DNA from: Liolophura sinensis
Lineage: Eukaryota; Mollusca; Polyplacophora; Chitonida; Chitonidae
Length of the DNA: 64,000 bases
NCBI RefSeq assembly: GCF_032854445.1
Contig: NC_088295.1
Span: forward strand, 51,627,249-51,691,248
Reading direction: 5' to 3'
Shown here in pieces: positions 45,201 to 64,000 of this stretch. Made by a program: the position numbers and the translations under genes. The first letter of the stretch is position 1; every line of letters starts with the position of its first letter. Under the pieces are notes generated by a model that made no database searches, was not told the DNA's origin, and saw only the letters and a program-made list of their open reading frames with translations.

Positions 45201-46347
45201 ATCAAGTAGTTGCTAGCTGAAACAAGCGAACGTTTTGTCGTTCCAGTAGAAATATATTTAAACTGCATTCAGCTTTCTCTGTTTGCAGGGAGCAGAGGCA
45301 AAGAAATCCAAAATGGTGAGTATATGATCGTATTGTAAACTTCATAAGAAATAAAAATCAAAAAAGATACTCTACCTGTATCCTGTAGGGCTTTTTATTC
45401 TTGGCTCTTGGGCATTGCTCAAGTACTAAGCCCAAAAGTGGACATTTTGTTTTAGAGGCAGGGCTTCCTGCAGGATAAAAATTTGGGCTCCCCGTATATG
45501 TTGAGATAACGTTCAGTTGGTTTTAATAAGGACTTTCTCCTGTCTGTTAAGGGCAATATTACATATTATATCACATAATAAAGGCCTTTCAAAAACAATT
45601 CCACACTAAAACAGACAAACAAACAATTATTTTGGATATAATTAAGGTTTGCTTGCCTGGATGTGACACAACAGCATTTGGAACATTTTTTCCCACCATG
45701 CATCAGCCATTTTTCAAACATTTGAAATAGTGTTACAGATCAAAGAAAATGTAAGGTGCTGTGGAGACTAGCTATTGTTTGATTGATGCCTAGATCTGTA
45801 CCATAGAAAATTTCACCCAAAGACAAAGAAAACACTAAAATGAAAATACATGTATTTTAATTGAAAGATCATTGAACACTATAAATCAAAATAGTTTGAA
45901 TGAGTAAAATCCTTTCAGAACATTAGACTCTTTTGTGATCTGTTGGGCATCAGTGATGTTACATTCATATTTTTTGCTTGAAATAGTTTGTTTCAATATT
46001 CATTTCAGTGAATGCATTCATAACTCTATATATTTTGAATGATGGAATCTAGTGCGTTTAAAATAAATTGCAAAAAGCTCAAATGACGTCACTAGTCCCT
46101 ATATGCTCAGAAAAGGCCACCATATTATCCAAAGTTTTAAGTGCATGTTATTAGGTTGAAAAAAATTCTGAAAAAAAGTAAAACAACTTTCCTAGTTCAC
46201 ACAATACAGTTTTTGTAGAGAAAAGATGGGTATGAAATCTATTTTTTGATTTATATTTGATAACTGCTTCGTTTTCTTGTGTTTTAGGATGTTGATTTGT
46301 CTGAACTGGAGATAGAGAAGTTGTTGAGCTTTGTTCACAAGACATAA
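22510..46347 (+). CDS. NPAT: NPAT homologue, histone-gene transcription coactivator (first exon not found, exon 9 frame-broken)
   Basis: NPAT is the nuclear LisH protein of the histone locus body that activates replication-dependent histone genes and is a cyclin E-CDK2 substrate in vertebrates. Exons recognised: 22510-22680, 29501-30490, 33187-33310, 33974-34151, 34779-34988, 37731-37824, 38921-40354, 42544 to about 44453, 45289-45315, 46288-46347. Evidence: C-terminal LisH half (GYLKRENCAKAYKALLKESS), ALWKQFDELV, a basic cluster SPRRKRFAPKRRS across exons, ELQKKLAENINK, MTRSDPAFDALFQLFDNG, two long Ser/Thr-rich disordered exons, and a short acidic-hydrophobic C-terminus after DVD. Splice phases agree through exon 9, except that the first coding exon was not confirmed. 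From about 43700 to 44450 the frame is broken several times. Vertebrate NPAT is about 1,430 residues; this model is of similar size. Confidence 0.9.
22681..23528. other. NPAT intron, no gene seen
   Basis: AT-rich intron immediately after exon 2; no repeats of note. Confidence 0.55.
23529..23869 (+). CDS. Candidate two-exon coding fragment inside an NPAT intron, unknown family
   Basis: Exon 23529-23675 (49 codons from ATG, ending GTAAGT) encodes FVGPTVRCHLRCATKAHQRL and continues His, Cys and Arg rich to RRHIWAQQTHVE. A second piece, 23831-23869, has acceptor TTGCCTCCCAG and donor GTAAGT and adds ITVPRVNILNRPE in the same phase. Two consensus donors with matching phase are unusual for random sequence. 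The spaced Cys and His residues could bind metal, but no known domain was recognised. No further exon in phase was found. It may be part of the same multicopy element as the decayed copy at 25821. Confidence 0.35.
23990..24700 (+). mobile_element. Putative non-autonomous element (AACCACTGAACCGATCG type)
   Basis: A sequence with TCTTCTCAAGAACCACTGAA, TTTTCAAATTTGACATGCAG, CCGGTCAAAACTCTGGAAGC and AACTCGAGAACTATGGCAGC, phrasing I recall from dispersed repeats of marine invertebrates. It begins with a GGGATCCC..GGGATCCC inverted pair and may end at GATGGGAATCCTATTGC. Boundaries are uncertain. Confidence 0.4.
24701..25820. other. NPAT intron, unassigned
   Basis: Low coding signal. A weak tRNA-like string at 24993-25048 (GATGGCCGAGCTATCAGTAG) was noted. 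A GATCCGATCCGGGATCCCGG palindromic patch occurs at 25314. Confidence 0.4.
25821..27070 (+). pseudogene. Decayed copy of an uncharacterised multicopy metazoan coding family
   Basis: Preceded by an acceptor-like TTTATTTTCAG. Coding text in several frames: MALSGAERAKRYKEKKANQ, a Lys/Arg-rich helix (RSRAYRDITQRKHKFTNEKR), LIHGSILRKYRMLERP, AVSSFLERYDKQLMPGQRD, MVLSDNMHFLHAKFLYENPQ, KLAYSSFCSLRPYWLITPE and a Cys-containing block (NQKCMYGECILCEDKQL). The order SGAER, basic helix, RD or YD with K..KKQ, LSD...LH.KFL.E.P, F..LRP.W, C.Y.EC..C is one I recall from repeated uncharacterised proteins of fish and marine invertebrates. At least three frame changes and stops; 3' part cut by SINE sequence near 27100. 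Lies within an NPAT intron. Confidence 0.6.
27111..27297 (+). mobile_element. SINE family 1, 5'-truncated
   Basis: Starts near TCTCACCAATGCGG, retains B box and 3' domain, ends AATCAGATAAATAAA. Directly abuts the decayed coding repeat at 25821-27070. Confidence 0.85.
27815..28192 (+). mobile_element. SINE family 2, 5'-worn copy
   Basis: Shares over 300 bases with 37205-37563: AAAAGAGGAAGTTGTAACTT, TTCAGCATGAAGGGGATAGT, CAACAAGGAGGCACATTAC and the 3' end GACTGAAAAATTGTTGAGTA. Head is decayed. NPAT intron between exons 2 and 3. Confidence 0.82.
28193..29500. other. NPAT intron before exon 3
   Basis: No conserved coding segment; T-run at 29250-29272. Ends in the exon 3 acceptor. Confidence 0.5.
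29501..30490 (+). CDS. NPAT: NPAT exon 3
   Basis: Acceptor TTTGCGCAG, donor GTGAGT, phase 1 on both sides, 330 codons. It begins ETRTLKCGQPATALWKQFDE, aligning with the vertebrate segment preceding SSLWKKLD. The rest is Ser/Thr/Gln-rich and disordered, with a possible DNA-tethering basic patch (KQGRPRLSDR). Low complexity beyond the first 40 residues leaves only length and context as support. Confidence 0.88.
30595..30830. mobile_element. Relative of the 12885 MITE-like repeat
   Basis: GGATTCAGAATCTATGCTGA, GACAGTGGAAGTAGG, CCTTGGTCACACTTGA and, later, CACACCAGCCATTCAGCAAC, in the same order as at 44965. NPAT intron between exons 3 and 4. Confidence 0.45.
31788..31810 (+). repeat. Homopolymer G run
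   Basis: About 22 consecutive G after a T-run, then TGGGGGAGGAG; likely polymorphic and error-prone in assembly. NPAT intron. Confidence 0.95.
31898..32166 (+). mobile_element. SINE family 1, full length
   Basis: A box GGCCTCTGTGGCTCATTTGG, B box GAGTTCGAGTC, 3' domain and AAAT tail all present. In the NPAT intron between exons 3 and 4. Confidence 0.92.
32437..32582 (+). mobile_element. SINE family 1 with large 3' deletion
   Basis: Complete tRNA-like half to GCCGTACGTGGGAA, then joins AATCAAATAAATAA. The central and 3' domains are lost while the tail remains. Confidence 0.88.
33187..33310 (+). CDS. NPAT: NPAT exon 4
   Basis: Acceptor AATTGTAG, donor GTACTT, phase 1 in and phase 2 out. Encodes GIGATTPVKQTSLSEHVHV and ends TKGKSPRRK plus two bases of Arg, comparable to the SPGRRKS segment of vertebrate NPAT. 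Confidence 0.8.
33974..34151 (+). CDS. NPAT: NPAT exon 5
   Basis: Acceptor GTGCCCAG. It completes Arg, giving RFAPKRRSSG, a basic cluster with exon 4 that looks like a bipartite nuclear localisation signal. It continues Gly/Ser-rich to HHEDSMDIP. Donor GTATGT at 34152; a second in-frame GTAAGA lies six bases further, so two codons could be optional. Confidence 0.82.
34779..34988 (+). CDS. NPAT: NPAT exon 6, KLAENINK segment
   Basis: Seventy codons, phase 0. SLVEQLLENTELQKKLAENI then NK matches the invariant SLQEKLAENINK segment of vertebrate NPAT. A Pro-rich stretch and SLEDILDIH follow, just before donor GTAAGC. Confidence 0.93.
34989..37204. other. NPAT intron between exons 6 and 7, left part
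   Basis: AT-rich, several short open frames (35076-35267, 35743-35967) without homology or paired splice sites. TATATATAGATATATC-type simple sequence near 36190. Confidence 0.5.
37205..37563 (+). mobile_element. SINE family 2, full length
   Basis: tRNA-like head (TAGCACAGTGTGTAGAGCGT with B box GGGTCAATCCCTGG), a long body, the same ATTGTTAAATACGACGTTA 3' domain, and a CACTCACTCA tail. NPAT intron between exons 6 and 7. Confidence 0.85.
37731..37824 (+). CDS. NPAT: NPAT exon 7, SDPAF segment
   Basis: Acceptor GTTCATAG, donor GTTAGT, phase 0 in and phase 1 out. Encodes EAQMSDVEMNGIIDM then TRSDPAFDALFQLFDN, the most conserved NPAT segment after LisH (vertebrate ESDPAFQALFDLFDYG). This exon makes the identification firm. 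Confidence 0.95.
38921..40354 (+). CDS. NPAT: NPAT exon 8, long disordered exon
   Basis: Acceptor GTTGACAG, donor GTAAAC, phase 1 on both sides, 478 codons without a stop. Ser, Asn, Asp and Gln rich, no predicted fold. Basic patch TRATKHPRKGKRPQNSAKVQ near the middle; scattered SP and TP dipeptides are possible CDK sites. Corresponds by position to the large central exon of vertebrate NPAT. Confidence 0.88.
40355..42543. other. NPAT intron between exons 8 and 9
   Basis: No recognised gene or repeat family. Short open frames at 41189 and 41820 have no coding support. Confidence 0.5.
42544..44453 (+). CDS. NPAT: NPAT exon 9, intact to about 43705 then frame-broken
   Basis: Acceptor TGTTCACAG, phase 1. 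The first 390 codons are open: LSALLQIASMLPERE at the start, acidic and Ser-rich middle, a basic patch near 43180 (LPRRSSRLADKS), then four 27-residue repeats (KVSTTNAGR.LP.LDL). The frame stops at 43716-43718. Coding-like text resumes in other frames: GSIKKTLKIPMKTTTTKEN from 43708, SPVQAIPVEWLNTSGLNTSS from 43766, IGKIKRTIIKYDDESSRR before 44083, NIQALKTATAAPARGVLDLC from 44148, and TIDWTQFNEDKQTRLTSK then a KRRRKKRG basic tail to about 44453. No single reading frame spans this part. Confidence 0.75.
44816..44881 (-). mobile_element. SINE family 1, 3' fragment
   Basis: Reverse orientation, tail and the AAGAATATTTCACTTATACG domain only. NPAT intron between exons 9 and 10. Confidence 0.82.
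44965..45140. mobile_element. Relative of the 12885 MITE-like repeat
   Basis: Starts GGGATACAGAATCCATGCTG, continues TTTGGCTAACAGTGGAGATA, and ends near CACACCAGCCAATTTGTCAG, the counterpart of the other copy's right arm. In the NPAT intron between exons 9 and 10. Confidence 0.5.
45289..45315 (+). CDS. NPAT: NPAT exon 10, 27-nt microexon
   Basis: Acceptor GTTTGCAG, donor GTGAGT, phase 0 on both sides. Encodes GAEAKKSKM, a basic lead-in to the C-terminus comparable to the Lys-rich stretch that precedes MDVDKFLLSL in vertebrate NPAT. Confidence 0.78.
46288..46347 (+). CDS. NPAT: NPAT exon 11, C-terminus
   Basis: Acceptor GTTTTAG, phase 0. Encodes DVDLSELEIEKLLSFVHKT and a TAA at 46345-46347; the vertebrate protein ends DVDKFLLSLHYDE. 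Conservation of the terminal hydrophobic helix indicates selection on this end even though the upstream exon is frame-broken. Confidence 0.85.
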   Translation, partial: DVDLSELEIEKLLSFVHKT

Positions 46348-46740
46348 GGGGAGGTTCATATTTATCAGTGTTCCCTCTGTGACTCCTTTATCTCAGCTAG
46401 CGACGTGTTTCTGGTGGAACAGACTTCACGTGGTTGAGACAGACGGTGCATACATACTTATTGATGCACTTACAGACGTACTTCTAGTGATATGGATAGA
46501 CTTCAAGTGGTACAGACAGACTTCACGTGATTGAGACAGATGGTGCATACATACTTATTGATGGCACTGATACACTTCAGATGGTACAGATACACTTGGT
46601 GTTACAGACATACTTCTGGTGATATGGATAGACTTCAAGTGGTACAGACATGCTTGAGGTGTTCAGGAGCTGATAGTTCCATACTGGGCTTTCAAACCGA
46701 GTGCTCACTCAGTTGTGATATCTTATTTTAGTCTTTCAAG
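46348..46740 (+). other. NPAT 3' untranslated region with imperfect repeats
   Basis: Follows the NPAT stop. From 46419 to about 46660 a unit beginning ACAGACTTCACGTG recurs after 97 bases (46419, 46516), with shorter partial copies built on ACTTC and GATATGGATAGAC. No clear AATAAA was fixed as the cleavage signal, so the 3' end of the transcript is not defined. Confidence 0.5.
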
Positions 46741-46754
46741 TAATTTTTTGCATT

Positions 46755-47021
46755 GATTGATTGATTGATTGATTGGTGTTTTACGCCGTACTCAAGAATA
46801 TTTCACTCATACGACGGCGGCCAGCATTATGGTGGGCGGAAAACGGGCAGAGCCCGGGGGAAACCCACGACCATCCGCAGGTTGCTGACAGACCTTCCCA
46901 CATACCGCCGGAGAGGAAGCCAGCATGAGCTGGACTTGAACTCACATCGACCGCATTGGTGAGAGACTCCTGGGTCATTACGCTGCGCTAGCGCGCTAAC
47001 CAACTGAGCCACGGAGGCCCC
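46755..47021 (-). mobile_element. SINE family 1, full length, (ATCA)n tail
   Basis: Cleanest reverse copy: ends GCCACGGAGGCCCC, with intact A and B boxes. The tail is four ATCA units rather than AAAT. A T-run follows the head. Confidence 0.93.
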
Positions 47022-47503
47022 TTTTTTTTTTTTTTTGCATTGAAGATCTCAACACAATAATCACAGATTGTGTGTGGGTCCTCACTGGCTAGGTCTGGTC
47101 TTAATGCAGAGACTAGGCATGTGATCTATTAAGTTGCGTTCAAATCCAGCTCTGGTAACTTTGGGCTGTGGTATTTCAGCAGGAAATCTGTCATGGCAGG
47201 AGCTAAGTTTTGGCATTGGTCAAGGGCTAGTTGTCTGCCGAGGATAGCTTTAGTCAGCTAGGGTCCAGTGTAGCCTTAGTGTGTACATATATGTGTGAGG
47301 GCAGTCACATCTTTGACAGCATGTATTAACAGGTCATTTGTTCTGTTTGGAGTTAAAATGTTTTGAACGGTAACCAGTGCATTTTGCGAATGAATGCTTC
47401 ATCATAATTATGTTAATGTTTTCAAAAAAGAAAACATTGGAGAAGTTTGCCGGTTTATGTTTGACGTACCAGGGAACAGTGTTGATTACACCGTCCACAA
47501 CTA

Positions 47504-47636
47504 CTGTACGTGGGAAGGTTTGCCAGCAACCTGCAGATGGGCTCTGCCCGCTTTCCTCCCACCATAATGCTGGTCGCCGTCACATAAGTGAAATATTCTT
47601 GAGTGCGGCGTAAAACACCAATCAAACAAACAAACC
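47504..47636 (+). mobile_element. SINE family 1, 3' half
   Basis: From GTACGTGGGAAGG to an (AAAC)n tail. The GGTCGTGGGTTTCCCC piece is deleted. Confidence 0.87.
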
Positions 47637-47711
47637 ATCCACAACTAGTGACAGCATGCATAAGTGCTGATACAAGAGCAGATTTCTTTATACAGAGCAT
47701 GGCCATACATG

Positions 47712-47831
47712 TGTGTGGGAAGGTCTTCCAGCAACCTGTGGATGGTCATGGGTTTCACCCGGGCTCTGCCCGGTTTCCTCCCACCATAATGCTGGGTGCC
47801 GTCATATAAGTGAAATATACTTAAGTACGGC
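47712..47831 (+). mobile_element. SINE family 1, 3' half without tail
   Basis: From GTGGGAAGGTCTTCC to TACTTAAGTACGGC, then truncated. It is 76 bases from the previous copy. Confidence 0.85.
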
Positions 47832-48545
47832 AGGTCATTGGGCCTATATGTGCGATAGACAGGCTGAAAATCCAATGAAGAACGTCCTGTCTGTGTGGCA
47901 CAATGGAGCTGTGACTCCTTACAAGTGCATTTATTCTTGTTACTGTTAATATGCATTTAAAGTTCTGGTGAAACAAAAATAATTGTTGGGCGACTTTTGC
48001 ATAATCATGCGCATAGTGAAGATATTTTTTATAGTATCCAGAGCAAAATGTTTCATCCTTTTTTTTTGAGGTGTGCTTTGTGCAATAGTTCATTTTGCAT
48101 AGCGATGTACAGCTCTGTGTAAAAGAGTTTGCCTGAAACAGGATAGATATTAACAACTTTTGATTTAGTGTGTTTCACATTGAAATGAAAATACAGTAAA
48201 TGTATGGTTATACAGCATTGAAGAGAGCATCCCCAATGCATCATGAAAGTTATAGTTTTTAATTATACAGAAATGTTGCTATTATTTTCTTTTTCTTAGT
48301 ACAGAATGAAAGTGTTCTAATGTTGAGTTGAATCATTCTGAATTCAAGCCATTTCATCCCTCATTGCAAAGTGCAGGTTTGCTTTGGGAGAAAGCAGAAG
48401 AGAGATTTCTATAGAATAGGCAACATTTCTCGCCTGAAGAAATTTCAGTGTTTTGTGGCTGGAAATTACATTGCAAGAGAACAGGGTCAGTTTCACCTGA
48501 ACCCAAGTTGCTGCAGAAGAGGTATCTCATTAAATTGCAACTGTA

Positions 48546-48750
48546 TTTGATTGGTGGTTTACACCGTACTCCTATTTCAAGAATGTTTCACTTATAAGAC
48601 AGCGGCTAGCTTTATTGTGGGACGAGACTGGGCAAGCCTCTGGTCATCCACAGGTTGCTGCAGACCTTCCCAAGCCAGCATCTGGACTCACATTGATGCG
48701 CCCACATTGATAAGTGGCGTTCACAGGGCCATTTAGTTGGTCCCGGAGTT
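48546..48750 (-). mobile_element. SINE family 1, diverged copy
   Basis: Reverse orientation; 3' domain, CCATCCACAGGTTGCTGCAG and a worn B-box region can be followed with several small indels. Confidence 0.75.
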
Positions 48751-50484
48751 TCGTACACATTGTGCTTGCTGATGTGTGGGTGATAATCTATGAGTTTAAA
48801 CACTTGTACATGTACTTTCTTCTGAAGGCCAGTGTTTTTTCTGGGCTCTTCCCTTTCATCCACCCATGAAAATGACAGCCACTGCATAAGTTCAATAATC
48901 TTCAGTGTGATCTGAAATCAAAGTGAATCGTTTCAATAACTGGTTTATTGATACAGTGATGGAATTGAAGCAAGACAGTATTTTTTTTTTTTTGCAATGA
49001 AATGCTGACTTTTTGTTGACAGAAATTCAGTCAGGTGACAGTGCTTTTTGCACAATTCATGCCGGCCGACCTTCAGGCGTCATTTAGTACTTTCTTGGCC
49101 AATGAAAACACTCTGCCTCCATTTTCAACCAATGATTAATAAACAATGTTAAATCTGAGCGCAAATCACCTGCTTCGTGGCAGACTTGTTTTAGCTTGCC
49201 GTACATTGTCTGTCGTTTATGTAGTATCAGTTAATTTCGTAAATCAGTTAATTTGGTATATTTCGCTGTCCTACGATGCTTTAAGGACTTTACAGTGGGC
49301 CATGATGACCTACTTTAGATGCAGACAAGACTTCTGCACCAACACAGCAGGCAACTGGAATCCGTACCCTATTGCCATTTTGTTTCGCGGGACGAATGTA
49401 ATTGTGTTTATTCTAGGGTGTAAAACCTTCTTTGGCTGCCAGCCTGCCATTTTTGGTGTACTCGATCATGCGTGGTATCAAAATGATGAAAATTGTTTAA
49501 ACTGTGGGCAGGTATGAGTTTTTAATGATGAAAATTTGTAATTCTCGGCGAGAGGACACAAGAGACAAGTGGTGATGAGGCCCTGACTGTTGTCCCCTTG
49601 GCGCTTCCAGGCACCCCTCCCAGCTGCTGGCGTAGAAAGGTCTTGATTTTGATGGTCTCATTATGTCAAGGTTTTTATGGCTGATCTCTCACAGACAGGG
49701 CCAGGTATGCACCAAAGCTTATGTTTGGGACTGAGTTACAGTGCTAAACGTTAATACTGTCACTTATGGAAAATTAATTGAGATTAATGAAAACAGGCGT
49801 GCCAGCCTACTCTGTCAGGTTGAAGCCATGTTAATTGTCTGATTCAACAAAAGTGAAACATCAAAAGCCATTTGGTCCTGTAATTTATAGCCAGTTGATG
49901 TGATCAGTGGCTGTTTGAATGCTGCTTATCAGGACTGTAGGCCATTAAAGTCGTTAAGCATTGGTGGCCCATCAAAGTACATGTAGTCTTCCTGGATTTT
50001 TTAGAGGATGTTTTGCTTTCAGCAGTCAGCGTTACGACTGGAGGATGTCTGTTGTCTCCACCCAATGAAACTGACCACTGTTTTTTTATTAAGTGAACAA
50101 ATTATGAGTAAGCAATTAAATCGAGTTCAAATCAATAAGTTATTTGTCTTTATTGAAAGACTAAAGTTTTTAACTTTGAAAACACATTTCTTTGTTTATT
50201 CACCAATCACAGAATCTCAAGTATAGTGTATATAATTCAATACAGTGGTAATGATAATAAAAATAATAAAATAATAAATAAGCTAAGTAAAACCATTACA
50301 AGTTTCATTTATCTCAAAACATGAAGAAAGTAATTTAAGTGTATTAAAATGAGATCTGTTAGTAATGAAAAGGCATTGATTTCCATAAAGAGAGAGAGTT
50401 CTACTGCATGCTGTTCATGTTTCAGTTAGGTAACATTCAATATCTACCTTGTAAATGTTTCAACACATCCATGAGAATGGAGGA

Positions 50485-50590
50485 GGAGTTTGTGGCCCAG
50501 TGAGTATAAAGGTGTGTGTAGTTTGTAACCGTAAGATCGGGGGTTCAATCCCAGCCTTGGGCAGAGAACTTAAAGATTCTTTAAAGGGTG
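50485..50590 (+). repeat. tRNA-derived repeat, third type
   Basis: TGGCCCAGTGAGTATAAAGG (A-box-like) and GGGGGTTCAATCCC (B box) at tRNA spacing, followed by GCCTTGGGCAGAGAAC. Not related in the body to families 1 or 2. Confidence 0.5.
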
Positions 50591-51184
50591 GCAATAAGAG
50601 GAGGAGGATGTTTACTGATGGGTGTTTGCACGTCACATTCTCTGATGACTTCTTGACTTCTCCCAACATTGTGTGCGAGTATGAACACCAAACTGGTTTG
50701 CCCCTGGCTATTTGCTCTCCTCCACATATAAAAACCAGCTGCCATCGAATTCGGGAATTCTTCAGTACTTAATTACAGCAATAAACAAATAAATCCACGA
50801 GAAGTGTACTGTCTTTAACTTGCACATGTTTCAACAATCTATAAATCACATCCATGAGAAGGGTACTATCTGTATTCCTAAAGCAATATTTTATATTTTC
50901 ATAGAACAATTAATCATGTATGATAAGAGCCCAGCCATTTGCTTATCAGTGACCAATAAAAACAAGCATTCTTGAAATATTTCTTTCTTGATAGATGTCC
51001 CTACCAGGACCAAATTGAGCCCTCTGAATAAAGACCTGCATCTATAGAAATGTCCACTGTGGAGCAAAATGGCCAAAGAGTGGTCAAATATATGGGGCCA
51101 ACACGAAATAGACCAAAGTACAGCTAAATCTGTAATTTGTCTGGGTGTATGCAGCCATGTACCAAGATTCAGAATAGTTCGGCC

Positions 51185-51342
51185 CTACGTGGGAAGGTCT
51201 TCCATCAACCTGCGGATGGCCGTGGGTTTCCACCGGGCTCTGCCCAGTTTCCTCCCACAACAATGCTGGTCACAATCATATTCTTCTCATATTCTTGATT
51301 GCGGTATAAAACACCAATCAGATAAATAAATAAATAAATTCA
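51185..51342 (+). mobile_element. SINE family 1, 3' half
   Basis: From TACGTGGGAAGGTC through GTTTCCACCGGGCTC to an (AAAT)n tail. Confidence 0.88.
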
Positions 51343-52366
51343 GAATAACAAATAATTTGGATACTATCAACCATCAAAGTCTAAAACAGGACAAGAACAG
51401 GCTATACTGATAATTGCTGAAAATGCTCCAACTCATCTGAACCTGTAACACATCATTTTGAATCGCACCATGTTTCAACACAATACAACCACCCATTCTG
51501 AAAAAATATCTAAACCCTAAAATGGCCATAATTTTTTTGAAAATCAATGGAGCACTTAGAAGCCCAACTTGATCTGCAACTTATCCTGGGGAAACCATGT
51601 ACAGTGAAAAATTTTACTAAATATGATGAGGAACCAAGTTGAAGTTCAGAAAACTTTGTAAACCTTCAGATCTTATCCCAACTGGTAGTGGTAAAGAACT
51701 AATCACTGCATGAATCATCATGTACAACAGAGTGACGTACATGTATAGTGTAGAGTGGCCGATACAACAGAGTGACATACATGAATAATGTAGAGTAGCT
51801 GATACAACTGGGAGCACAACCCACCTACCAAAATAAAACATGAAACACAATAAATATATCAACACTACACCAAATAAATCCGTTTTAATTGTAGCTTAAT
51901 GTGTAAGACAATGGCATGGACTACAACATGCAGACACAAAACCCTGTTGGGCACTCTACCCACATTTAGGGAAATTTCAGACAATAGCAGTACCAAATCA
52001 CTCACTCACAGTTTACTGTTTGTGTCAAGCTTCATATCTTAACTGGTCAGCTTGGCTTGTTCATGGTTACACAGTATTTTCCAAAATCACAAGTAGTGTG
52101 GACACCAAAACCTCCAGCGATAACTGACTTGCACAATGCTTGCATCGTTAAATTATACCTTATTTAAGACTTACTTAACACTTCATCCATGAACGATTAT
52201 TAAAGAGTATATCTCGCTAATTTTGATAAGCCAAATAAGTTAAAGGCAGCAATCTGATAAGCTCTACTGACATGGTATAGAGCAAATACATCTGTGTGTA
52301 TTTCTTTGAAACAGTGAAAATGAAGTGTGTCTATCCACAATATTGATGTGGTTTAACATGAATCTC

Positions 52367-52372
52367 TTTATT
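52367..52372 (-). terminator. Candidate poly(A) signal, transporter copy A
   Basis: AATAAA on the minus strand about 425 bases downstream of the copy A stop. It is an isolated hexamer in an AT-rich region, so the assignment is weak. Confidence 0.3.
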
Positions 52373-52559
52373 AGTTATCTGTAAGACAATCGCGTTTCAA
52401 AAACGAAAGGGACTGTGTCCTGGCAGAGAAGAGGGGTTAAAGGGGAGCAGGTTTTAGCTGCTTTTAGTAGCAGAGGCCAGAACAACTTCCCAATGCCTCA
52501 GACAGAAAGATACAAATTCAATTTCCAATGAATAAAGCAGCCCGTTTTTAAATGGAAGT

Positions 52560-52665
52560 TGGTACATGCCTGGTATGCATCACTTGAACACCCGGCATGC
52601 ATCACTTGAACACCCAGCATGCATCACTTGAACACCCAGCATGCATCACTTGAACACTTGTGGTC
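52560..52665. repeat. 22-bp repeat, four units
   Basis: ATGCATCACTTGAACACCCA plus GC repeated about four times, just 3' of the transporter copy A stop and so possibly in its 3' UTR. Confidence 0.85.
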
Positions 52666-52796
52666 TAATTCTGTTTCTGGACTGATGTACTTGGATGACA
52701 AGAGAAGTGGTCTTGAACAGAACATACAGCACAAAACATATTAACAGTCATACATATGCAGGTACATGTGTACCCATACAACTGTGTGCTGGTCCC

Positions 52797-53500
52797 TTAC
52801 TGCTTATTGGTAAGAATCAGACTCATGATTGCAGCAAGATTTATTATAGCACTGCCCAAAATAGGTCCCTGTGGATTGATTTCTAAGAGAAGGCCTGATA
52901 ACAAAGGGGTTACAGTCCTCGAGATGGATGTAAAACTTTGGAGTAGTCCCATTAGTATCCCTGTATCAGCAGGGCGGACACGCTGTAGCATGACACTTAG
53001 AAAGGCCACGCGCAGGACTGCTGAGCATACACTTAGCGGAGCCTGGAACACTGAGAATACAACAAGGTTTGGGGCACTCATCAAGCCACATACTCCAACA
53101 AACAACAGAACTGTCATGGGAAGTATTGACTTGGCATCGCCACCGCAGAAATGTGAAATTTGCCCCACATAAAATCCGGAGATCGTCCCCATAATACTTG
53201 ACACAGATATCACATAGCCATTGGTTCTGGGAGATGTGTTAAAATTCTCAATCAACAATCGAGTGTAATTTGTTCTCAGAAGTAAAAAAGAAAATCCCAC
53301 CAGAAATCTGGTCAGAAATATACTCCACAGATCTGGCCTGATCACGTTTTCAAATGACTGGAAAATCTGGATGATACTTAATGTCTGACATTTTGGCTTG
53401 CCTAGTTTAACAGAGTCATCTTCGAAACTGTTGGAAGTAGACGAATCCTTCAAAGGTAGACGTTTGGTCACGGGAATAACAAGGTACATGTAGACAAGCA
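52797..53500 (-). CDS. MFSD9-like major facilitator transporter, terminal exon (copy A)
   Basis: C-terminal half of a multi-pass membrane transporter. Acceptor CTGTTTCAG; exon starts TG CTT GTC in phase 1; 704 nt to the TAA. After one hydrophobic segment (LVYMYLVIPV) comes a hydrophilic loop (KDSSTSNSFEDDSVKLGK), then about six membrane segments, with LWSIFLTRFLVGFSFLLLRT, SPRTNGYVISVSSIMGTISG and SISRTVTPLLSGLLLEI. The layout (LW.(I/L)FL.R.L, P...GY.IS, (S/G)R...P...G) matches MFSD9 in my recollection; MFSD10 or another tetracycline-transporter-like MFS member is possible. Substrate unknown. No upstream exons were found in 53501-55000. Confidence 0.8.
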
Positions 53501-54015
53501 CTGAAACAGGTACAAAACAAAAGGAGGTAGACAATAACATGCAGATAACATCAACATTAACTGTGGTACTCCAACTTCGTTTTCTCAGTGCAACGACTCA
53601 TTAAAACTGAAAAACTGGAACTGGTTTGAAACGATTTATATTTAATATATACTGGTTTTTATATTCATATATTTTGAACAACATAACCCTTGTTATCGTG
53701 CTCCCAATTTAAATTCGTGTTATCTACAAGTAAGCATTTAAATTCCATTTTAAATATTGACTTTTACCAAAACTGGGTCTGTGGAATCAGCCTCCTGAAC
53801 CGTATAAAACATACTCGTAAGGAGAGGTATGACCTAAGACATACAACGACATGTAAAATGCAGGGTTTGCAAAAACTTTCACCAATCTACCATCTCTTTC
53901 TCGACATGACTTGTGGATAAGAACAGACTGGCAGACAACAGCCATTTTCCCAGATGACCTCACATATCATATTTACATCGGTAGATGTTCATTTTTCAAA
54001 ATCTAAGTCTGTACA

Positions 54016-54112
54016 GTTTTCTCCCACCACAATGCTGGCTGCCATCGTATACATGAAATATTCTTGAGTATGGCGTAAAACACCAATCGAATTAAAAAAT
54101 AAATAAATTTAA
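54016..54112 (+). mobile_element. SINE family 1, 3' fragment
   Basis: CCACCACAATGCTGGCTGCC, TATTCTTGAGTATGGCG and tail. Upstream of transporter copy A exon. Confidence 0.82.
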
Positions 54113-54587
54113 ATCTAAATATTTCTAATCGTTTAATATATGTTTTCTACAAAAAAGGAGTCAATTTCCACACAGCTATATGTATGTACTTTATTCATGA
54201 AGCAAGTGTTAGACAAGTGGAAAATCTGTAATGAAGTCTATCAATACTGTCTAGTGCTCATAAAAGTGCTGTTACTTGTGTATATACACTGCCATGAAAG
54301 TATTCCAAGTGTGTGAAAAAGAAAAGGTACAGAACCAATAAAGACAGTTTATTACTGCAGGAGGAATGTGTAGAAACTCATGGAAAACATTTTGTATAGT
54401 TATAAAAAATATACTTCCTCCAAAACTAGTATCATTTGTATACACAATTCAGTTCATCTGAGTGAGAAAATACACGCATGATTTTGACGCTTTTCTCAGA
54501 AAATGATACACACAAGTACACTGCAGACGAGAGTGAACATACTCAAACCACACAACATGATTAAACATGATTACAAATCTCTAAAGT

Positions 54588-54735
54588 CCAGCTTATGCTG
54601 GCACCCTTTCCAGTCATACGTGGAAAGGTCTGACAGCAACCTGGGGATGGTTGTGGGTTCCCCCCACGCTCCTTCTAGTTTATTCTCGCCATAATGCTGG
54701 CTACCATTGCATAATATTCTTGTCTAAAGCAAGGA
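54588..54735 (+). mobile_element. SINE family 1, internal fragment
   Basis: Starts at the AGCTTATGCTGGC B-box flank, runs through GGTTGTGGGTTCC, and fades after ATAATATTCTTG. Confidence 0.78.
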
Positions 54736-54974
54736 CATAATACCAAAATAAACCCAAAAATATCTCTCATGTACACTGCTCACATTTGTTAAACAAATTA
54801 TTCACATCACAATGATGCTAGGCAGTTTATCACAGAGTTTGAGACATAAATGACCCATCAAATAAAAAAAATTCACAGCCTTATGTATGCACACACTTAT
54901 GTTCCTTGGGGGATACATCAGGGCTGATCCAAATCCAAAATGTCATCACATGTCCCAGCTAAAACATTTGAACA

Positions 54975-55535
54975 GACCAGGGTGATCTTTAATATATCCT
55001 GATGGGCCAGCCTTAATACATCCTGATGGGCCAGCCTTAAAACATCCTGATAGTTCAGCTTCAATATATCCTGATGGACCACCTTTAATATATCCTGATG
55101 GGCCAGCCTTAATACATCCTGATGGGCCAGCCTTAATGCATCCTGATGGGCCACCCATCATATATACTGATGGGTCAGCCTCAATACTTCCTGATGGGTC
55201 ATCTTTAATACATCCTGATGGGCCAGCCTTAAAACATCCTGATAGTTCAGCTTCAATATACCCTGATGGACCACCTTTAATATATCCTGATGGGCCAGCC
55301 TTAATACATCCTGATGGGCCAGCCTTAAAACATCCTGATAGTTCAGCTTTAATATATCCTGATGGAACACCTTTAATATATCCTGATGGGCCAGCCATAA
55401 TACATCCTGATGGGCCAGCCATAATTCATCTTGAAGGGTCATCTTTAATATATCCTGATGGGCCAGCCTTAATACATCCTCATGGGCCAGCCATAACTCA
55501 TCCTGTAGGGTCATGTTAAATATATCCTGATGGAC
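54975..55535. repeat. 24-bp minisatellite with higher-order period
   Basis: About 23 units of CATCCTGATGGGCCAGCCTTAATA. Variants (TATAGTTCAGCTT, GGACCACCTTTAATA, GGGTCATCTTTAATA) recur in order, giving longer blocks of several units. Both strands are open: plus gives HPDGPALI and minus gives AGPSGCIK octapeptides. No start context or splice sites mark it as coding. Confidence 0.93.
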
Positions 55536-55559
55536 CACTGTTGTTACATCCAGTGGGGC

Positions 55560-58500
55560 CAGTCTACACAAGAGTATGCCTTTACTGAGGCTACACTCAA
55601 TGTCAGAAAGTCTAAACAAGAGTTAGGTTCAGTATCACAGAGCCATGCTGACAGTCTACACAAGAGTTAGGCTCAGTATCAAAGAGGTATACTGACAGTA
55701 TACACAAGAGTTAGACTCAGTATCAAAGAGGTATACTGACAGTATACACAAGAGTTAGGCTCAGTATCAGTGTGGCATGCTGACAGTCTACACACGAGTT
55801 AGGCTCAGTATCAGTGTGGCATGCTGACAGTATACACACGAGTTAGGCTCAGTATCAGTGTGGTATGCTGACAGTATACACACGAGTTAGGCTTAGTATT
55901 AGTGTGGCATGCTGACAGTATGCACAAGAGTTAGGCTCAGTATCAGAGAGGTACGCTGACAGTATACACAAGAGTTAGGCTCAGTATCAGAGAGGTATAC
56001 TGACAGTCTACACAAGAGTTAGACTCAGTATCAGAGAGGTATACTGACAGTATACACAAGAGTTACGTTCAGTATCAGAGAGGTATACTGACAGTCTACA
56101 CAAGAGTTAGGCTCAGTATCAGAGAGGTATACTGACAGTCTACGCAAGAGTTAGGCTCAGTATCAGAGAGGTATACTGATGTATACGCAAGAGTTAGGTT
56201 CAGTATCAGAGAGGTATACTGACAGTCTACACAAGAGTTAGGCTCAGTATCAGAGAGGTACGCTGACAGTATACACAAGAGTTAGGCTCAGTATCAGAGA
56301 GGTATACTGACAGTCTACACAAGAGTTAGACTCAGTATCAGAGCGGCATGCTGACAGTCCACACAAGAGTTAGGCTCAGTATCAGAGAGGTATACTGACA
56401 GTCTACACAAGAGTTAGGCTCAGTATCAGAGCGGCATGCTGACAGTCTACACAAGAGTTAGGCTCAGTATCAGAGAGGTATACTGACAGTCTACACAAGA
56501 GTTAGACTCAGTATCAAAGAGGTATACTGACAGTATACGCAAGAGTTAGGTTCAGTATCAGAGAGGTATACTGACAGTATACACAAGAGTTAGGCTCAGT
56601 ATCAGAGAGGTATACTGACAGTCTACACAAGAGTTAGACTCAGTATCAGAGCGGTATACTGACAGTATACACAAGAGTTAGGCTCAGTATCAGAGCGGCA
56701 TGCTGACAGTATACACAAGAGTTAGGCTCAGTATCAGAGAGGTATACTAAGAGTCTCCACAAGAGTTAGGCTCAGTATCAGTGTGGCATGCTGACAGTCT
56801 ACACAAGAGTTAGGCTCAGTATCAGAGAGGTATACTAAGAGTCTACACAAGAGTTAGGCTCAGTATCAGAGCGGCATGCTGACAGTCTACACAAGAGTTA
56901 GGCTCAGTATCAGAGCGGCATGCTGACAGTATACACAAGAGTTAGGTTCAGTATCAGAGAGGTATACTGACAGTCTACACAAGAGTTAGGTTCAGTATCA
57001 GAGAGGTATACTAAGAGTCTACACAAGAGTTAGGCTCAGTATCAGTGTGGCATGCTGACAGTCTACACACGAGTTAGGCTCAGTATCAGAGAGGTATACT
57101 AAGAGTCTACACAAGAGTTAGGCTCAGTATCAGTGTGGCATGCTGACAGTCTACACACGAGTTAGGCTCAGTATCAGAGAGGTATACTAAGAGTCTACAC
57201 AAGAGTTAGGCTCAGTATCAGAGCGGCATGCTGACAGTATACACAAGAGTTAGGTTCAGTATCAGAGAGGTATACTGACAGTCTACACAAGAGTTAGGCT
57301 CAGTATCAGAGAGGTATACTAAGAGTCTACACAAGAGTTAGGCTCAGTATCAGTGTGGCATGCTGACAGTCTACACACGAGTTAGGCTCAGTATCAGTGT
57401 GGCATGCTGACAGTATACACACGAGTTAGGCTCAGTATCAGTGTGGCATGCTGACAGTATACACACGAGTTAGGCTTAGTATTAGTGTGGCATGCTGACA
57501 GTATGCACACGAGTTAGGCTCAGTATCAGAGAGGTACGCTGACAGTATACACAAGAGTTAGGCTCAGTATCAGAGAGGTATACTGACAGTCTACACAAGA
57601 GTTAGACTCAGTATCAGAGAGGTATACTGACAGTATACGCAAGAGTTAGGTTCAGTATCAGAGAGGTATACTGACAGTCTACACAAGAGTTAGGCTCAGT
57701 ATCAGAGAGGTATACTGACAGTCTACGCAAGAGTTAGGCTCAGTATCAGAGAGGTATACTGATGTATACGCAAGAGTTAGGTTCAGTATCAGAGAGGTAT
57801 ACTGACAGTCTACACAAGAGTTAGGTTCAGTATCAGAGAGGTACGCTGACAGTATACACAAGAGTTAGGCTCAGTATCAGAGAGGTATACTGACAGTCTA
57901 CACAAGAGTTAGACTCAGTATCAGAGCGGCATGCTGACAGTCTACACAAGAGTTAGGCTCAGTATCAGAGAGGTATACTGACAGTCTACACAAGAGTTAG
58001 ACTCAGTATCAAAGAGGTATACTGACAGTACACGCAAGAGTTAGGTTCAGTATCAGAGAGGTATACTGACAGTCTACACAAGAGTTAGGCTCAGTATCAG
58101 GGAGGCATACTGACAGTCTACACAAGAGTTAGACTCAGTATCAGAGCGGTATACTGACAGTATACACAAGAGTTAGGCTCAGTATCAAAGAGGTATATTG
58201 ACAGTATACACAAGAGTTAGACTCAGTATCAAAGAGGTATACTAAGAGTCTACACAAGAGTTAGGCTCAGTATCAGTGTGGCATGCTGACAGTCTACACA
58301 CGAGTTAGGCTCAGTATCAGAGAGGTATACTAAGAGTCTACACAAGAGTTAGGCTCAGTATCAGAGCGGCATGCTGACAGTCTACACAAGAGTTAGGCTC
58401 AGTATCAGAGCGGCATGCTGACAGTATACACAAGAGTTAGGTTCAGTATCAGAGAGGTATACTGACAGTCTACTCAAGAGTTAGGCTCAGTATCAGAGAG

Positions 58501-61500
58501 GTATACTAAGAGTCTACACAAGAGTTAGGCTCAGTATCAGTGTGGCATGCTGACAGTCTACACACGAGTTAGGCTCAGTATCAGAGAGGTATACTAAGAG
58601 TCTACACAAGAGTTAGGCTCAGTATCAGTGTGGCATGCTGACAGTCTACACACGAGTTAGGCTCAGTATCAGAGAGGTATACTAAGAGTCTACACAAGAG
58701 TTAGGCTCAGTATCAGAGCGGCATGCTGACAGTATACACAAGAGTTAGGTTCAGTATCAGAGAGGTATACTGACAGTATACACAAGAGTTAGGCTCAGTA
58801 TCAAAGAGGTATACTAAGAGTCTACACAAGAGTTAGGCTCAGTATCAGTGTGGCATGCTGACAGTCTACACAAGAGTTAGGCTCAGTATCAGTGTGGCAT
58901 GCTGACAGTATACACACGAGTTAGGCTCAGTATCAGTGTGGCATGCTGACAGTCTACACACGAGTTAGGCTCAGTATCAGTGTGGCATGCTGACAGTATA
59001 CACACGAGTTAGGCTCAGTATCAGGGAGGCATACTGACAGTATACACAAGAGTAAGACTCAGTATCAAAGAGGTATACTGACAGTCTACACAAGAGTTAG
59101 GCTCAGTATCAGGGAGGCATACTGACAGTCTACACAAGAGTTAGACTCAGTATCAAAGAGGTATACTGACAGTATACACAAGAGTTAGACTCAGTATCAA
59201 AGAGGTATACTGACAGTATACACAAGAGTTAGGCTCAGTATCAGGGAGGCATACTGACAGTCTACACAAGAGTTAGACTCAGTATCAAAGAGGTATACTG
59301 ACAGTCTACACAAGAGTTAGACTCAGTATCAGGGAGGCATACTGACAGTCTACACAAGAGTTAGACTCAGTATCAAAGAGGTATACTGACAGTATACACA
59401 AGAATTAGGCTCAGTATCAGGGAGGCATACTGACAGTCTACACAAGAGTTAGACTCAGTATCAAAGAGGTATACTGACAGTATACACAAGAGTTAGACTC
59501 AGTATCAAAGAGGTATACTGACAGTCTACACAAGAGTTAGGCTCAGTATCAGGGAGGCATACTGACAGTCTACACAAGAGTTAGACTCAGTATCAAAGAG
59601 GTATACTGACAGTATACACAAGAGTTAGACTCAGTATCAAAGAGGTATACTGACAGTATACACAAGAGTTAGACTCAGCATCAAAGAGGTATACTGACAG
59701 TCTACACGAGAGTTAGGCTCAGTATCAGAGCGGCATGCTGACAGTATACACAAGAGTTAGGCTCAGTATCAGAGAGGTATACTGACAGTATACACAAGAG
59801 TTAGACACAGTATCAAAGAGGTATACTGACAGTATACACAAGAGTTAGGTTCAGTATCAGAGAGGTATACTGACAGTCTACACAAGAGTTAGGCTCAGTA
59901 TCAGGGAGGCATACTGACAGTCTACACAAGAGTTAGACTCAGTATCAGAGCGGTATACTGACAGTATACACAAGAGTTAGGCTCAGTATCAGAGCGGCAT
60001 GCTGACAGTATACACAAGAGTTAGGCTCAGTATCAGAGAGGTATACTAAGAGTCTACACAAGAGTTAGGCTCAGTATCAGAGCGGCATGCTGACAGTATA
60101 CACAAGAGTTAGGTTCAGTATCAGAGAGGTATACTGACAGTCTACACAAGAGTTAGGCTCAGTATCAGAGAGGTATACTAAGAGTCTACACAAGAGTTAA
60201 GCTCAGTATCAGTGTGGCATGCTGACAGTCTACACACGAGTTAGGCTCAGTATCAGAGAGGTATACTAAGAGTCTACACAAGAGTTAGGCTCAGTATCAG
60301 TGTGGCATGCTGACAGTCTACACACGAGTTAGGCTCAGTATCAGAGAGGTATACTAAGAGTCTACACAAGAGTTAGGCTCAGTATCAGAGCGGCATGCTG
60401 ACAGTATACACAAGAGTTAGGTTCAGTATCAGAGAGGTATACTGACAGTCTACACAAGAGTTAGGCTCAGTATCAGAGAGGTATACTAAGAGTCTACACA
60501 AGAGTTAGGCTCAGTATCAGTGTGGCATGCTGACAGTCTACACAAGAATTAGGCTCAGTATCAGTGTGGCATGCTGACAGTATACACACGAGTTAGGCTC
60601 AGTATCAGTGTGGCATGCTGACAGTATACACACGAGTTAGGCTTAGTATTAGTGTGGCATGCTGACAGTCTACACACGAGTTAGGCTCAGTATCAGTGTG
60701 GCATGCTGACAGTATACACATGAGTTAGGCTCAGTATCAGGGAGGCATACTGACAGTATACACAAGAGTAAGACTCAGTATCAAAGAGGTATACTGACAG
60801 TCTACACAAGAGTTAGGCTCAGTATCAGGGAGGCATACTGACAGTCTACACAAGAGTTAGACTCAGTATCAAAGAGGTATACTGACAGTATACACAAGAG
60901 TTAGACTCAGTATCAAAGAGGTATACTGACAGTATACACAAGAGTTAGGCTCAGTATCAGGGAGGCATACTGACAGTCTACACAAGAGTTAGACTCAGTA
61001 TCAAAGAGGTATACTGACAGTATACACAAGAGTTAGACTCAGTATCAGGGAGGCATACTGACAGTCTACACAAGAGTTAGACTCAGTATCAAAGAGCTAT
61101 ACTGACAGTATACACAAGAGTTAGGCTCAGTATCAGGGAGGCATACTGACAGTCTACACAAGAGTTAGACTCAGTATCAAAGAGGTATACTGACAGTATA
61201 CACAAGAGTTAGACTCAGTATCAAAGAGGTATACTGACAGTCTACACAAGAGTTAGGCTCAGTATCAGGAAGGCATACTGACAGTCTACACAAGAGTTAG
61301 ACTCAGTATCAAAGAGGTATACTGACAGTATACACAAGAGTTAGACTCAGCATCAAAGAGGTATACTGACAGTCTACACAAGAGTTAGGCTCAGTATCAG
61401 AGCGGCATGCTGACAGTATACACAAGAGTTAGGCTCAGTATCAGGGAGGCATACTGACAGTATACACAAGAGTTAGGTTCAGTATCAAAGAGGTATACTG

Positions 61501-62310
61501 ACAGTATACACAAGAGTTAGGCTCAGTATCAGAGAGGTATACTGACAGTCTACACAAGAATTAGGCTCAGTATCAGGGAGGCATACTGACAGTCTACACA
61601 CGAGTTAGGCTCAGTATCAGGGAGGGATACTGACAGTCTACACAAGAGTTAGGCTCAGTATCAGGGAGGCATACTGACAGTCTACACCAGAGTTAGGTTC
61701 AGTATCAAAGAGGTATACTGACAGTATACACAAGAGTTAGGCTCAGTATCAGAGAGGTATACTGACAGTCTACACAAGAATTAGGCTCAGTATCAGGGAG
61801 GCATACTGACAGTCTACACACGAGTTAGGCTCAGTATAAGGGAGGCATACTGACAGTCTACACAAGAGTTAGGCTCATTATCGAAGAGGTACGCTGACAG
61901 TCTACTCAAGAGTTAGGCTCAGTGTCAGAGCAGCATACTGACAATTTACACCAGAGTTAGGCTCAGTGTCAGACTAGCACACTGACAGCCTACACAAGAG
62001 TTAGGCTCAGTGTCACACCAGCATACTGACAGCCTACACAAGAGTTAGGCTCAGTGTCAGAGCAGCATACTGACAGTTTACACCAGAGTTAGGCTCAGTA
62101 TCAGAGAGGGATACTGACAGTTTACACCAGAGTTAGGCTCAGTGTCAGAGCAGCATACTGACAGTTTACACCAGAGTTAAGCTCAGTGACAGAGAGGCAT
62201 ACTGACAGTTTACACCAGAGTTAGGCTCAGTGTCAGAGCAGCATACTGACAGTTTACATCAGTTAGGCTCAGTGTCAGACTAGCACACTGACAGTTCACA
62301 CAATAGTTAT
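55560..62310. repeat. 44-bp tandem array, about 150 units
   Basis: Unit ACAGTCTACACAAGAGTTAG plus GCTCAGTATCAGAGAGGTATACTG. Subtypes differ at GAGAGGTATAC, GTGTGGCATGC, GAGCGGCATGC, AAAGAGGTATAC and GGGAGGCATAC. A rare GGCTTAGTATTAG variant occurs at 55891, 57474 and 60641 (spacing 1583 and 3167, about 36 and 72 units); a rare AGAGTAAGACTC variant recurs after 1716 (39 units). The right edge (61900-62300) is more diverged, as expected at an old array margin. Confidence 0.96.
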
Positions 62311-62474
62311 GCAGTGTTTCCACATACATGCAATTATGTCTGCTATTAAAGTCATGGGTCTGTTCATTCTTTCGAGAAAGGAAATTACATAAATACTCCT
62401 GAGTGTTTCCAATGCACGTATGTGTTAAAACAGAGCGAATGCAGCATGCCCATTTTTAACACACTGGACTAGGG

Positions 62475-62480
62475 TTTATT
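62475..62480 (-). terminator. Candidate poly(A) signal, transporter copy B
   Basis: AATAAA on the minus strand about 157 bases downstream of the copy B stop, between the gene and the edge of the 44-bp array. If used, copy B ends before the array and copy A is a separate or alternative 3' end. Confidence 0.4.
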
Positions 62481-62636
62481 GCTGGTGTTGACTGCCAGTA
62501 TAATGGAACTGAAGTTGTCAATGCGTGACCAAGGTAACACTGTAACACTGTAATGTGCAAATGCAATCGAATGTCCATGGAAAACAGCCTTATGCTCTGA
62601 GTTTAAAAGAATCAGTCCGTCATCACTATATACACA

Positions 62637-63340
62637 TCAGTTTTCCTTTTTCTTGATACGCTGTTTGTGAAATTGTGTGGCCATAACAATCAGTGCCAGG
62701 CCTACACATATACAGCTGCCCATGACAGGCCCCACTGAGTGCACTTCTAACAGCACCCCTGCCGACATGGGGGACAGTGTTCGTGCGATCGCCATTAGGC
62801 TCTGGTTCAATCCCATCAACCCTCCAGCCTCGGCTTGGCCACCAGACTCCACCATAAGACTGACAACCACAACACGGTATATAGCAGAACTTAAACTTAA
62901 CAGTGTCTGCAGTATTATAAAACTTGGTAAATTTGGAGCCAAAACCATACCCATAAGTCCTAAAAAATTCAAAATAACCGCATGACAGAACAGCTTTCCA
63001 TCATCCTGATAAAAACGCGCTATTCGGCCCACAGCAAAACTTGACCCAGCTGAAAAGACTGCTCCAAATGAAATTATGTAACCGTTCATTTTGGGAGTTG
63101 TCTGAAACCTGTCACTCATCATTCTTGTGAAGTTGGCCTTCGGCATAATGGATGCAAAGCCCACGAGGAAGCTGACAAGGAATAAATCCCACAAGCTTTT
63201 CCAGTTAACATTGGCAAAAGATGAGAAGATGTTTTTCATAGCCATAAAGATGGAGATTTCAGTAGTCGAAGTTTTCTTTAATTTAATTCCAGCAGGTGCA
63301 CAATGAATATCTTCAGGAGGAAGGCAAAAGCACACAATTG
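62637..63340 (-). CDS. MFSD9-like major facilitator transporter, terminal exon (copy B)
   Basis: Second transporter terminal exon, same strand. Acceptor TATCTTTCCAG; exon starts CA ATT GTG in phase 1; 704 nt to the stop, the same length and phase as copy A. Encodes a loop, then LWDLFLVSFLVGFASIM, TPKMNGYIISFGAVFSAGSS, GLMGLNQSLMAIARTLSPMS and a basic end (HKQRIKKKEN). By eye roughly a third to two fifths of residues match copy A, so the pair is old. The N-terminal half should lie to the right of 63340, most or all of it beyond the window. Confidence 0.82.
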
Positions 63341-64000
63341 CTGGAAAGATAAATAATTTGTGTTATTATTCTAAGAGACAATTACGAGTGAGGTTAAGTT
63401 AAAATAATTACTGGTAACAGAAGCTCAACTGATATATGACCTTGTCCCAGAATCATAAAGCTGTCTTGGAAACAAAACGTTTCAGACGAGTCACAACTTG
63501 AGAGCAGTAAACTTTTTTGAAGATACAACAAGGTCTGACTTAAGATGACTTAATGATCCTTGGAACCAAAATCTGCATCAGGAGCATTTGCATCAGTGCT
63601 GAATTTGCATCAGCCTAAAGTGACATATTTTTTTCATGTATGAACTTTAAAACCCAGCTGGCCAGCAGGCAAACCATGTTTATCACTGAACACAAATTGT
63701 TAGGAACAAGTCCATGTTAGATGGTCTGCTCTGTGTGTCGTCTGAGTTGAGCAAAATGCTGCTGAATGAGCATGGTAAGTGTAATGGGTAGGCCTGCTAT
63801 TCACTCTGCTATTTGGAACTTTTATCCTTACCTTGAATAAAAACTGTATTTCTCCAAGCCTTTTTAGTAATATCAATGATAAGCTATATCCAAATATCAA
63901 ATAGTTTCAAATTATTTTTTATTCTCTCAAAGTAAAATGGTTTTATATCTAAATTCATTTTCAAATAACTATCATATGCATATAAAACTCAAGTATTTAC
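63341..64000. other. Intron upstream of transporter copy B exon
   Basis: AT-rich, no further transporter exon recognised before the window ends. TTTGCATCAG-type short repeats at 63568-63612. Confidence 0.5.

Follow-up and report, generated by a model that had tools for sequence, protein, structure and literature searches.

In a 64,000-nucleotide window of the Liolophura sinensis genome (the whole stretch of DNA analyzed here), two homologous terminal exons, each encoding the C-terminal half of an MFS transporter, lie in tandem on the minus strand, and their arrangement raises the question of whether one gene uses both exons or whether each has, or once had, an N-terminal half of its own. Exon A occupies positions 52797..53500 (−) and ends in a TAA stop, and exon B occupies positions 62637..63340 (−) and ends in a TGA stop. 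Both are 704 nt long, and in each the first 2 nt complete a codon started upstream, which gives them a common entry phase. Exon A has its acceptor, with a pyrimidine tract, at 53501..53520 (−; TTGTTTTGTACCTGTTTCAG), and exon B has its acceptor at 63341..63360 (−; CAAATTATTTATCTTTCCAG). An approximate weight table gave these acceptors scores of 5.95 and 5.09, at the 99.7th and 99.1th percentiles, respectively, of 3918 AGs on the minus strand of the window. Three further AGs in the 1.5-kb spacer upstream of exon A scored 4.5-5.4, one of them (5.4 at 54354) above the 5.09 of exon B. The frame of exon A is open from 53597, with in-frame ATGs upstream of the exon. The frame of exon B is open from 63362 and closed further upstream, so the start of this exon lies at most 22 nt from the proposed acceptor. 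Downstream, the first AATAAA was found 424 nt past the stop codon of exon A (52367..52372, minus strand; 51700-52796 searched) and 156 nt past that of exon B (62475..62480, minus strand; 61500-62636 searched). The presumed 3′ UTR of exon A also holds a short 22-bp tandem array (3.8 copies, 52575-52657). By base composition alone, 64 kb should contain an open frame of 234 codons or more only about 0.002 times. The anatomy of duplicated terminal exons is thus present, consisting of tandem homologues in a common phase, each with its acceptor, stop and poly(A) signal, and the lengths, phase, AG acceptors and terminal stops given in the preliminary description all held when coordinates and features were rechecked.

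Not all of these likenesses carry weight for a single gene. The alignment of the two exons has 12 codons gapped on each side, so their equal length is the net result of compensating indels, and we rejected it as independent evidence. A common phase is likewise what any pair of paralogous terminal exons would show. Comparison by blastn of the introns beside the two exons gave no match better than E=0.16, and homology between these introns was rejected. A looping out of exon B by RNA pairing was rejected as well, since the longest exact complement between the intron before B and the intron before A was 10 nt, which is chance level (shuffles: mean 10.3, maximum 15).

As to what the exons encode, both exceeded the gathering cut-off of the Pfam MFS_1 profile (33.4 bits), exon A with 50 bits and exon B with 38.8 bits, and their best-matching stretch was the first half of the profile (1-170), the two halves of which are alike. 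A two-sequence profile built from A and B aligned with the C-terminal half of MCT10 (294-442; E=1.9e-6) and with that of NorA (199-385; E=3.8e-4 to 0.012), and weakly with MFSD10 (271-416; E=0.73), while exon A alone found nothing better than E=0.19 in the PDB. NCBIfam returned only distant MFS subfamilies far under their cut-offs, the best at 30.8 bits for B and 25.3 bits for A; the Pfam order of A above B is therefore not general. Six long helices appear in a structure model of A, which is a poor one (mean pLDDT 39). The MFS_1 scores above the gathering threshold, together with the alignments to the C-terminal halves of solved MFS transporters, bear out the earlier claim that the exons encode related transporter C-terminal halves. 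At the level of sequence, MFS membership is established for both exons, and the proposed "MFSD9-like" identity is a lead, as yet unproven: the matches of A and B in Pfam, NCBIfam and the PDB are to generic or distant MFS. Relatives were also sought outside the window. Two short patterns taken from the A/B alignment matched 40 stretches in viral contigs and 59 in bacterial and archaeal contigs, of which none was confirmed in either set, and no relative was found in plasmids searched with A.

The two exons are old and well diverged, as had been proposed, with synonymous sites saturated and an identity of 39-40% (BLASTP: 83/209 residues, E=5e-49). Over 221 aligned codons, first, second and third positions differ at 52%, 32% and 62%, respectively. 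Differences were found at 27 of the 37 comparable fourfold sites, which is near saturation, and the JC distance at these sites has a lower 95% bound of about 1.0, or about 0.5 per lineage. Exon A nevertheless has no stop over 233 codons. In neutral simulations starting from A without indels, the frame stayed open in 53-65% of runs at 0.02-0.03 changes per site, in 34% at 0.05 and in 14% at 0.1; with frameshifts, at an assumed rate of 0.1 per substitution, these last two values fell to 3.4% and 0.15%. Simulations from B under a different base model without indels gave 22% at 0.05 per site and 6% at 0.1. Selection has thus probably maintained exon A through most of its history, and if the exon has lost its function, it did so recently. 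Its MFS_1 fit, higher than that of B, means that A does not resemble a decayed copy, and a long-decayed pseudogene was rejected on the grounds of the 233 open codons, this score and the simulations. Because the frame is intact, constraint has probably lasted until recently, which implies that an N-terminal half is supplied to exon A now or was supplied until recently. What the open frame dates is the constraint on A and not its splicing; private 5′ exons lost only recently would leave the same picture.

Of the 9,136 bp that separate the exons, 6.7 kb is a tandem array with a 44-bp unit and 0.55 kb one with a 24-bp unit, which leaves about 1.9 kb of non-array sequence. The larger array (55609..62309) holds about 152 copies, of which neighboring units match at 89%. 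Duplicated blocks within it are still nearly identical (868 nt, 98.3%; 835 nt, 98.1%; 722 nt, 98.1%), which indicates that the array turned over recently. Its minus strand carries the word CTAAC, which we take to be branch-point-like, 143 times, near one per unit; the array would lie in a long intron, and acceptor scores within it are low (best 2.5). The 24/96-bp array is located at 54987..55537, and between it and exon A lies the 1.5-kb spacer of non-array DNA (53501..54986), which gave no MFS match and includes two pieces, at about 54015-54110 and 54600-54740, that are presumably SINE-like. Further acceptor-like sites and hydrophobic open stretches are present in the non-array DNA of the interval.

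Tandem arrays are common in the window, as illustrated by a second long one at 7066-12169 (95-bp unit, about 54 copies, 95% matches), so those of the interval need not relate to the transporter. Another array, with units of 69/102/204 bp, is open on both strands (16923-17726, plus strand, 268 codons; 16622-17572, minus strand, 317 codons), probably because its repeat lacks stops. Elsewhere, the long plus-strand ORF at 42504-43715 repeats a stretch of 27 residues (81 bp), around the sequence KVSTTNAGRxLPxLDL, about four times at 43375-43690 (+), and the neighboring long ORFs at 29425-30510 and 38866-40437 may, as a guess, be exons of the same gene. Ten long ORFs of the window outside the transporter exons matched no family above its cut-off, and no Pfam family was matched above cut-off at the repeat-bearing locus.

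We then turned to the N-terminal half that either exon would need. Between the exons, the MFS_1 profile matched nothing along the minus strand (53501-62636) or, on the plus strand, within 53501-54985 or 62310-62636. Left of exon A, the minus strand of 45000-52796 also gave no MFS match, and the few other Pfam matches in the scanned regions were all under their cut-offs. Strict MFS motif A, sought with an unvalidated pattern, was absent from all six frames of the whole 64-kb window, and a looser version occurred four times in 64 kb against 4.1 in shuffles. The lack of an MFS match left of A and of strict motif A led us to reject further transporter copies on that side, where the scan of the plus strand of 45000-52796 covered motif A alone and that of 1-45000 covered motif A and, for six of the ten long ORFs, Pfam. 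Coding scores in the 1.5-kb spacer peaked at 8.6, within the range of the peak scores of ten neighboring block-strands (7.5-14.6; 45000-52424); exons A and B, both of which belonged to the training set, scored 20.8 and 30.1. The sensitivity of the profile search was gauged with pieces of A and B, which were matched by MFS_1 in none of six cases at 40-43 aa and in three of four at 69-75 aa (E 0.005-0.02, all under the gathering score). Exons shorter than about 60 aa at the 5′ end would consequently escape the search, so the preliminary statement that no MFS N-terminal exon lies between A and B, borne out inasmuch as none was found, applies only above about that size.

Together, these observations reveal two homologous, intact and old C-terminal-half exons that agree in phase and each have an acceptor, a stop and a poly(A) signal, and between which no N-terminal half was detected. 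The best reading, to which we give a probability approaching an even one, is a single minus-strand MFS gene with two alternative duplicated terminal exons. High-scoring acceptors in a common phase, an AATAAA for each exon, the intact state of an exon as old as A and the absence of a detected N-terminal half between the two argue for it; against it stand the 9-kb read-through past a poly(A) signal that A would need, the chance level of RNA pairing between the introns, and the room that the non-array DNA, with its other acceptor-like sites and hydrophobic open stretches, leaves for 5′ exons of less than about 60 aa. We know of no MFS C-terminal half that acts alone, and a long-conserved exon A should therefore need an N-terminal half. 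As none was detected beside it, the nearest plausible source would be the exons expected before B.

Under the alternative use of terminal exons, the N-terminal-half exons would lie beyond position 64000, ahead of B. Splicing and polyadenylation at B would yield the N-terminal half joined to B, whereas read-through past the poly(A) site of B, across about 9 kb of mostly repeats, would allow a common phase-1 donor to be joined to the acceptor of A and would yield the same N-terminal half joined to A. A donor exon with a final G would create GTG (Val) at the junction to A and GCA (Ala) at the junction to B. Since MFS transporters have their pocket between the two halves, a swap of the C-terminal half would change half of the transport path while the N-terminal half stayed constant. 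We infer the common donor, the expression and any change of substrate or regulation from this arrangement. In its full form, the reading states that one gene gives two 12-helix transporters, in which a single N-domain is combined with either of two anciently diverged C-domains, half of the pocket is set by the choice of terminal exon and polyadenylation site, and a 7-kb satellite tract lies in the last intron of the long form; this we consider somewhat less likely than not. The idea of a shared N-terminal half spliced to either C-terminal half, put forward in the preliminary description, thus gains from the anatomy and from a molluscan precedent (see below), while the loss of a 5′ part, which was named there as the alternative, still stands beside it.

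According to that alternative, which we consider rather unlikely, exon A is what remains of an old tandem copy of the gene; the 5′ half of this copy would have disappeared recently, perhaps in a deletion tied to array turnover, and the orphaned exon would not yet have decayed. The recent block duplications of about 98% identity in the 44-bp array point to a stretch in flux, in which a recent loss of 5′ exons is possible, and neutral drift of 0.02-0.03 per site is outlasted by an A-like frame in more than half of the runs without indels. However, the loss would have to fall within a small, recent part of the history of A, which spans, in each lineage, at least about 0.5 changes per synonymous site, and would have to take all N-terminal-half exons yet spare both the poly(A) signal of B and the acceptor of A; array expansion alone would presumably insert DNA, not delete it.

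It is also unlikely that exon A belongs to a separate gene, whether this has short exons in the spacer, 5′ exons beyond 64000 with B nested in the last intron of A, or a promoter of its own that drives a half-transporter. The detection limit of about 60 aa leaves room for short 5′ exons, and the frame of A remains open up to 53597 with its in-frame ATGs. When the frame was read from 53600, MFS_1_like matched weakly (21.8 bits against a cut-off of 25.2), with about 10 residues of the match lying in the intron, but this match is fragile, for it disappeared when the frame started at the ATG at 53540, with all matched residues kept, or when the exon was used alone. A half-transporter starting at the same ATG was rejected, as MFS_1 gained nothing (50.1 against 50 bits). 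A whole MFS N-terminal half needs about 190 aa, a size that, set against the spacer, counts against a separate gene, as do coding scores in the spacer at the level of neighboring DNA and the upstream ATG contexts of the frame, which are weak by eye. The nesting of a duplicate inside its sister gene would also be unusual. Finally, an assembly artefact, by which the 5′ exons of A were lost or misplaced at collapsed arrays, is quite improbable: assemblies can break in repeats such as the 7.3 kb of arrays that separate the exons and include near-identical blocks, but the window contains no N, and long reads can resolve 44-bp units whose neighbors are only 89% alike.

If one gene does use both terminal exons, nature would have carried out a domain swap within a very large transporter family, with one N-terminal half having to work with two C-terminal halves that are only 40% identical. 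The part played by each half in substrate choice and coupling could then be seen directly, and the range of duplicated terminal exons would grow from short segments to include a complete six-helix membrane domain.

Among known transporters, MFSD9, MFSD10, MFSD14 and SLC46 are described as 12-helix MFS proteins, whose C-domain (TM7-12) corresponds to the part encoded by A and B (PMC5648162). Among the nine proteomes scanned in that study, none of them molluscan, MFSD9 orthologs were found only in the vertebrates (PMC5648162). Set against this group, the solved chains closest to A and B are MCT10 and NorA, with MFSD10 reaching only the E=0.73 given above. A swap of MFS halves was not found in the open-licence literature, as represented by titles and abstract openings among the matches listed. 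Terminal exon substitution itself is well documented: the C-terminal class accounts for 77 of 236 human tandem-exon substitution events, and ion transporters make up six of the 12 gene families with tandem duplicated exon substitution in human, fly and worm (PMC9741552). The human C-terminal events resemble the arrangement proposed for A and B in that homologous terminal exons are swapped on a common N-terminal part, although many terminal swaps are said to concern signal peptides, anchors, single membrane helices, coiled coils or disordered parts (PMC9741552); a whole MFS C-domain would be larger. The closest parallel in a mollusc is the oyster AOX gene (CvAOX), in which terminal exon 10 is tandemly duplicated and both variants are expressed and alternatively spliced (PMC5589949). 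As described there, CvAOX shares with A and B tandem terminal coding exons in a mollusc, stops in both copies, equal coding length and divergence between the copies, but its exon encodes 41 residues of a mitochondrial oxidase, and one of its mRNAs holds both copies while the other holds only the second (PMC5589949). Exons A and B differ from it in encoding 233 residues with six predicted helices, in lying about 9 kb apart and in having separate poly(A) signals. The alternative use of duplicated terminal exons is therefore a known kind of arrangement, molluscs included.
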